Source: an uncultured Gammaproteobacteria bacterium (GTDB lineage: Bacteria; Pseudomonadota; Gammaproteobacteria; Pseudomonadales; Azotimanducaceae). From it: DNA of 45,324 nucleotides. Position 1 is the first letter of the stretch. Each line of letters begins with the position of its first letter. The stretch spans positions 1 to 45,324 of the forward strand of contig CAJWNY010000013.1 in assembly GCA_913043815.1 (NCBI GenBank), given 5' to 3'. Made by a program: the position numbers and the translations under genes. Shown in pieces: positions 12,842-21,374 of the stretch. The notes beneath the pieces are model-generated. The model saw only the letters and a program-made list of their open reading frames with translations, ran no database searches and was not told the DNA's origin.

Positions 12842-12918
12842 TGGTGCACCCGACTGGATTCGAACCAGTAATCGCCGGTTTCGTAGACCGGTGCCTTATC
12901 CAGTTGGGCCACGGGTGC
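12842..12918 (-). tRNA. tRNA-Arg(ACG)
   Basis: A 77-nt cloverleaf with encoded CCA. The acceptor stem is GCACCCG/CGGGTGC, the anticodon stem CCGGT/ACCGG closes a CTACGAA loop with anticodon ACG, and the T-arm is ACTGG-TTCGAAT-CCAGT. It is the usual inosine-34 arginine tRNA reading CGU/CGC/CGA. One D-stem pair is a C/A mismatch. Confidence 0.95.
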
Positions 12919-21071: not shown

Positions 21072-21374
21072 TGGTAGCCCCGACAGGAGTCGAACCTGTA
21101 TCTATCGCTTCGTACCACTACTACTTTCGTAGCCACTCTAAATGTTCGTGGTCTGGACTTTCTCTTAACCATTACTTGCCCTTTTGCACATGGCAGGTTT
21201 TAGGTTGCATCCGTCAAGTCTCTACACCTTCCGAATTGATCGGCTTGGCTCGGGATTGCCATTACGTAAGCAAGAAGGTTTCCCCGAATTTGAATGCATT
21301 TCATATGCCGTTTCCAAACACATGACCCAATTTTACTTAGGAGGCGACTATTCTATCCATTGAACTACAAGGCC
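21072..21374 (-). tRNA. tRNA-Arg(CCT), interrupted by a group I intron
   Basis: Exon 1 is 21374-21339 (36 nt) and exon 2 is 21110-21072 (39 nt); joined they give a 75-nt tRNA with encoded CCA. The acceptor stem is GGCCTTG/CGGGGCT (with three G-U pairs), the D-arm GTTC/GAAT, the anticodon stem GTCGC/GCGAT, the loop CTCCTAA (anticodon CCT) and the T-arm ACAGG/CCTGT with TTCGACT. The gene is broken directly after the third anticodon base. It reads AGG codons. Confidence 0.9.
21111..21338 (-). ncRNA. group I (IC3-type) self-splicing intron in tRNA-Arg(CCT)
   Basis: This 228-nt insertion begins AAGTAAAATTGGG and ends in G (position 21111). P1 forms between exon/intron CCT^AA and TTGGG, giving the required U-G pair at the 5' splice site. 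The core resembles the Azoarcus tRNA-Ile intron: AATTCGG-GGAAACC, ATGGCAA then CCGAGCCAAGC, GGTGTAGAGACT and AAGTCC are shared or near-shared, in the same order. P7 pairs GACTT (21220-21216) with AAGTC (21160-21156), while the Azoarcus pair is GACUA/UAGUC, so both sides changed together. No homing endonuclease is encoded. Confidence 0.92.

Follow-up and report, generated by a model that had tools for sequence, protein, structure and literature searches.

The window analysed here (45,324 nt, the whole stretch taken from contig CAJWNY010000013.1 of an uncultured gammaproteobacterium) carries on its minus strand a tRNA-Arg(CCT) gene that is interrupted by 228 nt between tRNA nucleotides 36 and 37, after the anticodon, as located by ARAGORN with introns allowed. 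The joined exons alone give a complete 75-nt cloverleaf with an encoded CCA, in which the acceptor stem is fully paired (three pairs being G-U). An earlier note, made from the sequence alone, had claimed that the exons rebuild a full tRNA-Arg(CCT) with CCA once 228 nt are removed, and the ARAGORN coordinates agree with it exactly. The features of the locus are the following, pair counts and percentages of paired cells referring to an alignment of 26 tRNA-Arg(CCT) introns:

21374-21072, minus strand: split tRNA-Arg(CCT) gene with encoded CCA (ARAGORN, introns allowed)
21339..21374, minus strand: 5' exon of 36 nt, with the anticodon CCT at its end (ARAGORN)
21111..21338, minus strand: group I intron of 228 nt, last base G at 21111 (RF00028 match and covariation)
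21326..21341, minus strand: P1, exon CCU (21341-21339) and AA with UU and the internal guide GGG (21328-21326), U-G pair at the 5' junction (guide counts)
21301..21325, minus strand: P2, GAAA-type loop (loop assigned by eye); 6 of 7 pairs vary on both sides, 85.7% of cells paired
21207..21297, minus strand: P3, 21297-21292 with 21212-21207; 4 of 6 pairs vary on both sides, 99.4% of cells paired
21249..21288, minus strand: P4, 21288-21283 with 21254-21249; 3 of 6 pairs vary on both sides, 100% of cells paired
21278-21277 with 21260-21259, minus strand: P5, inside P4; 98.1% of cells paired, no two-sided change
21227..21248, minus strand: P6, 21248-21247 with 21228-21227; 1 of 2 pairs varies on both sides
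21243-21240 with 21234-21231, minus strand: P6a; 4 of 4 pairs vary on both sides
21156..21220, minus strand: P7, the guanosine-binding helix, GACTT (21220-21216) with AAGTC (21160-21156)
21167..21206, minus strand: P8, 21206-21203 with 21170-21167; 3 of 4 pairs vary on both sides
21114..21152, minus strand: P9, 21152-21148 with 21118-21114; weaker, 89.3% of cells paired
21132-21129 with 21124-21121, minus strand: P9b, GAAA loop; 4 of 4 pairs vary on both sides
21072..21110, minus strand: 3' exon of 39 nt with encoded CCA (ARAGORN)

The 5' exon is identical in three relatives from the same genus (loci L002-L004), and all 39 nt of the 3' exon are identical to those of the intact genes of loci L013-L015. 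The sense strand of the intron contains stops in all three frames. The split gene is missed by ARAGORN run on the window without the intron option (the sole tRNA-Arg reported being tRNA-Arg(ACG), 12842-12918) and also by Rfam at gathering scores, which reports this tRNA-Arg(ACG) alone; the earlier note had rightly foreseen that standard tRNA callers might overlook the gene. A search with the group I intron model RF00028, which the note had proposed, gave with an E-value threshold a match at 21136-21344 on the minus strand that covers model positions 1-253 of 253 (E 1.7e-10 on 551 bases searched). The match spans the whole model, but its score of 45.7 bits does not reach the curated gathering score of 50, which explains why the split gene is missed by default Rfam. 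The best RF00028 score among the tRNA-Arg introns of the genus is 48.7 (genome G016).

A fold traced by eye on the window sequence was scored on the 26 tRNA-Arg introns, whose hosts are found among proteobacteria and cyanobacteria. Standard pairs occupy 95.9% of the 1160 cells of the 45 proposed pairs, and this value falls to 28-44% when the partners are slid by 1-3 columns. Two-sided changes affect 27 of the 45 pairs, including 12 core pairs, and covariation is strong in P2, P3, P4, P6a, P8 and P9b. The covariation score (0.501) exceeds that of shuffles (0.178; none of 500 as high, the shuffles ignoring relatedness). Pairing in the core is nearly complete (99-100% for P3, P4, P6, P7 and P8, slightly less for P5), and the pairing of P9 is incomplete in relatives (12 of 24 cells unpaired at one position). 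When the single sequence is folded alone, its minimum free energy does not surpass that of shuffles (z -0.16, 85 of 200 as good) with a program that does not model the P3/P7 pseudoknot.

The P7 letters announced by the earlier note, GACTT/AAGTC, were found again, versus GACTA/TAGTC in all 36 tRNA-Ile introns compared. Among the 26 tRNA-Arg introns, the last pair of this helix is UA in 17, AU in 8 and GU in 1, and the four remaining pairs are invariant. GACTT/AAGTC is carried by 13 of 13 tRNA-Arg introns from the genus and by 4 of 13 from elsewhere, whereas the other non-genus introns carry GACTA/TAGTC (8, hence AU instead of the UA of the genus) or GACTG/TAGTC (1). The U-G pair in P1 at the 5' junction and the 3' terminal G, both read in the sequence by the note, are likewise present, with a U at -1 and the guide GGG. 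Within the first 50 nt, this guide (facing CCU) occurs in 26 of 26 tRNA-Arg introns and GTG (facing CAU) in 36 of 36 tRNA-Ile introns. The U at -1 and the terminal G occur in 62 of 62 introns compared, which is a description and not a test, as the extraction pattern required both letters.

Introns of the IC3 subgroup are short, lie in the tRNA anticodon loop and carry GAAA loops on P2 and P9. The window intron displays the traits of IC3 tRNA introns, i.e. an anticodon-loop site, a length of 228 nt, a short P5 stem without P5abc and GAAA in L2 and P9b. It does not match the protein-spliced introns of archaea and eukaryotes (short, with a bulge-helix-bulge at 37/38), as the insertion lies at 36/37, is 228 nt long and has a group I core. 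The absence of P5a-d regions in IC3 introns is mentioned in PMC11835236.

In the genus (K189A/HTCC2089 group), 22 of 40 genomes have RF00028 matches: the tRNA-Arg intron is present in 14 and the tRNA-Ile intron in 21, 13 genomes having both. The matches were sorted by exon and position, the tRNA-Arg match of G059 being assigned through coordinates (L063) and the tRNA-Ile 5' exon of G014 being partly masked. The alignment with relatives suggested by the earlier note revealed empty sites: an intact tRNA-Arg(CCT) gene, in which the exon sequence runs unbroken across the insertion point, is found in 14 of the 40 genomes (pattern with 0 mismatches), none of which carries the tRNA-Arg intron. Similarly, an intact tRNA-Ile2 gene is found in 9 of the 40 (pattern with at most 1 mismatch), none with the tRNA-Ile intron; one of these nine, G025, depends on the mismatch and may be another tRNA. 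Neither form was seen in 12 genomes for tRNA-Arg and in 10 for tRNA-Ile. The family match, the covariation among 26 introns and the empty sites in relatives support the assignment of 21111-21338 to a group I intron that follows the anticodon of tRNA-Arg(CCT). As the gene is split in 14 and intact in 14 of the 40 genomes, the genus provides a usable system to date intron gain or loss at one site.

On an rpoB tree of 30 genomes of the genus, the presence of the tRNA-Arg intron requires 3 changes (known states) and that of the tRNA-Ile intron 2. This tree comes from a quick search without bootstrap and includes 30 of the 34 genomes in which rpoB was matched; G022 lies on a long branch, and the window's genome (G000) as well as G005, G007, G013, G017 and G020 lack an rpoB match and are thus outside the tree. 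Of the 14 carrier genomes, 13 (all except G014) have a nitroreductase gene upstream of the split tRNA, and tblastn gave no nitroreductase match in the flanks of 16 intact loci (L013-L028, 14 of them from the genus). A gene resembling the molybdopterin oxidoreductase of the window flanks 11 of these 16 loci, and L014 has a short piece of it, so that the neighbourhood has been rearranged. In G036, the tRNA is intact and has the same cNMP-domain neighbour.

The genome to which the window belongs is a draft of 2,851,459 bases in 133 contigs that is 90% complete. A query made of the tRNA plus the intron found only one place in this draft. A tRNA-model search gave 25 matches, of which the 23 examined (from 19 of 20 fetched stretches) are ordinary tRNAs, including intronless tRNA-Arg(TCT) and tRNA-Arg(TCG); the CCT anticodon is absent from these 23. 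Outside this set are the window match and a weak match of 29.6 bits, and the twentieth stretch corresponds to a second intron. An intact second CCT copy, in which the earlier note would have seen the mark of a dead pseudogene, was not found in this 90% complete genome. tRNA-Arg(TCT) can decode AGG through wobble, and given the intronless tRNA-Arg(TCT) gene (L140), the AGG codon probably still has a reader besides the split tRNA. AGG is the rarest sense codon of the 21 open reading frames of the window (30 of 9414 codons). The idea that introns reside in the tRNAs of rare codons was rejected, as ATA (125 of 9414) does not qualify as rare and the idea fails for the second split gene.

This second gene, which lay beyond the reach of a first reading limited to the window, is the only other place in the genome matched by RF00028 (C1:15108-15483, 57.5 bits; L073, L154). 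It is a tRNA-Ile2(CAT) gene with a 372-nt group I intron after U36. ARAGORN labels it tRNA-Gln(CTG), but the aligned exons give a CT-CAT-AA anticodon loop and this label was discarded. It is the sole tRNA-Ile2 gene detected in the genome, the other CAT tRNA (L146) being initiator-like by eye. The reading of AUA generally requires tRNA-Ile2, and the intron of this gene is therefore very likely spliced in the cell, which in turn makes the splicing of the tRNA-Arg intron more plausible.

An intron tree was built from 65 introns: 26 from tRNA-Arg (13 from the genus and 13 others, identical to the set scored for covariation), 36 from tRNA-Ile and 3 from tRNA-Leu as outgroup. Incomplete loci (L011, L085, L087, L088, L046, L049 and L062), tRNA-Thr and tRNA-Lys loci and loci without tRNA (L119, L126, L130 and L132) were left out, and repeat copies of a locus were counted once. 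One group (99/95) unites the tRNA-Arg introns of the genus, and another (100/100) all 36 tRNA-Ile introns. Forcing the tRNA-Arg and tRNA-Ile introns of the genus together is rejected (p-AU 1.6e-5), and a single clade of all tRNA-Arg introns is not (p 0.224); some branches of this tree are long, its deep order is unsure and its bootstrap is not fully settled. Inside the genus, the groupings of both kinds of introns agree roughly, by eye, with the rpoB tree. The introns group by tRNA site rather than by host, which suggests two old residents and not one hopping copy.

The explanation that is held with high confidence from these comparisons is that the 228-nt insertion would be a small group I ribozyme, spliced from pre-tRNA-Arg(CCU), which has long resided in this tRNA gene in part of the genus and been passed on mostly by vertical descent, its presence varying between related lineages. 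The fold and the exon boundaries are established by comparison; the chemistry and the splicing in the cell would follow those of the known family. The process can be pictured as follows: the gene would be transcribed as a precursor of tRNA-Arg(CCU), in which the insertion would fold into a small IC3-like ribozyme, devoid of P5abc and too short for a homing endonuclease. A guanosine held in P7 would attack after U36, the freed 5' exon would then attack behind the terminal G, and ligation of the exons would yield the only tRNA-Arg(CCU) detected in the genome.

Alternatively, the insertion might have broken the tRNA gene and no longer splice, AGG being read by tRNA-Arg(UCU). Such a dead pseudogene would fit the intronless tRNA-Arg(TCT), the rarity of AGG and the RF00028 score below the cut-off. 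A dead copy would, however, be expected to decay, whereas the exons keep a full cloverleaf whose acceptor, anticodon and T stems contain no mispair, and the core helices stay paired over deep divergence; this possibility is considered very unlikely. Both introns of the genome lie after U36, share a common core and have guides only one base apart (GTG versus GGG), as if the tRNA-Ile2(CAT) intron had recently reverse-spliced into tRNA-Arg. The rejection of a common group of genus tRNA-Arg and tRNA-Ile introns, each kind having its own group, strongly disfavours such a mobile copy, though long branches weaken the deep order, and makes it extremely improbable.

The distribution of the nitroreductase gene, upstream of nearly all split genes and without a match beside the intact ones, could also mean that the whole split locus arrived horizontally, together with the genes beside it, in a single branch of the genus. 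However, 3 changes suffice on the host tree, the intron groupings follow the rpoB tree at least roughly, and G036 shows the cNMP-domain neighbour beside an intact tRNA, so that this scenario appears unlikely. The vertically inherited ribozyme might also be more than a tolerated parasite: as AGG and AUA would be decoded via two resident ribozymes in sole-copy tRNAs, their need for guanosine would tie the tRNA supply to the GTP level and serve translation control, a highly improbable speculation.

Agrobacterium is a host of a tRNA-Arg(CCU) group I intron. The tRNA-Ile(CAU) intron of Azoarcus lies after U36, has a guide that pairs with the anticodon and is IC3-like. The window intron resembles the bacterial tRNA-Arg(CCU) introns by its gene, its site after U36, its small size and its core order; it differs by its host, a marine gammaproteobacterial lineage. 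It shares the U36 site, the anticodon-pairing guide and the IC3-like character of the Azoarcus intron, and its genome also has an intron at the tRNA-Ile site; it differs from the tRNA-Ile introns by its guide (GGG instead of GUG), these introns having their own branch in the intron tree. The Azoarcus intron and its relatives are dealt with in PMC3984707 and PMC8450103, and a group I intron site in bacterial tRNA-Arg(CCU) is mentioned through a citation in PMC5733544.

The tRNA-Arg(CCU) and tRNA-Ile(CAU) intron sites are thus already known from other bacteria, and the present intron adds a further example. The present data add a host group, a record of which members of one genus have or lack the intron, and a genome with two split sole-copy tRNAs; a literature search judged from titles and abstract openings found no description of the tRNA-Arg intron in the K189A/HTCC2089 group. 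A marine gammaproteobacterial group is thereby added to the range of the tRNA-Arg(CCU) intron, and a sole-copy tRNA gene proves invisible to default tools. As the split tRNA-Arg gene is missed and tRNA-Ile2 is called tRNA-Gln(CTG), tRNA counts and codon-decoding models of such genomes may err.

A strict pattern applied to one genome per species (84,980 species) gave 30 hits, of which 25 are complete split tRNA-Arg(CCT) genes, a lower bound; two are false and correspond to intact tRNA-Arg(CCT) genes (L048, Aromatoleum; L052, Clostridiales) and three lie at contig ends (L046, L049, L062). Twelve of the 25 belong to the genus and 13 to other hosts (Thiotrichales, Halothiobacillaceae, Contendobacter, Endonucleobacter, Parasulfuritortus, two cyanobacteria and unclassified gammaproteobacteria). 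Within the class, 56 of 369 genomes have RF00028 matches under strict filters. The 30 loci fetched from them comprise 18 split tRNA-Ile2(CAT), 3 split tRNA-Leu(TAA), 4 without surrounding tRNA and, by eye, 4 split tRNA-Thr(TGT) (L105, L107, L110, L113) and 1 split tRNA-Lys(CTT) (L116). The tRNA-Ile, tRNA-Thr and tRNA-Lys insertions of these loci all lie after U36, as does the tRNA-Arg intron. ARAGORN mislabels the four split tRNA-Thr loci. Paired adjacent RF00028 matches on one strand were also observed (G232:C1:320016-320733, G100:C8:2539-3098), those fetched (L126, L130) being without tRNA.

Part of the window intron matches 1253 of 72,556 plasmid records with 60-80% identity, 18 of 20 of the matches listed covering nt 81-228. 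On pCTX-M3 (L185, 2386-2684), a tRNA-Leu(TAA) gene, labelled tRNA-Stop by ARAGORN, is split by a 221-nt group I intron. When matches over at least 80% of its length are counted, this split gene is present in 1257 of 72,556 plasmid records and, among 5426 complete Escherichia coli genomes, in 624; no annotation lies under it in the six E. coli matches listed (five full copies and one fragment). It lies about 650 nt from aac(3)-IId in the one copy examined closely; this resistance gene is near the split tRNA in L185 and L190, though absent from the L191 flank. These resistance plasmids (L185, L190, L191) also have an AAA ATPase or tunicamycin-resistance gene nearby. A brief literature search found no paper on a plasmid-borne split tRNA-Leu(TAA). 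A tRNA-Thr-like gene on a Tritonibacter megaplasmid (L188, 1397-1724) contains a weaker group I match (34.1 bits). In a 735-kb uncultured phage record (LR756501; L189, 1426-1716), ARAGORN reports a tRNA-Leu(TAA) split by 205 nt, without RF00028 match at E 0.01. The pelagiphage HTVC120P (L186) has a BLAST match between two capsid pieces, again without RF00028 match at E 0.01, and another marine phage (KT997847; L187) carries two group I introns beside capsid gene pieces (1446-1626 and 2155-2335, 78.0 and 76.9 bits).
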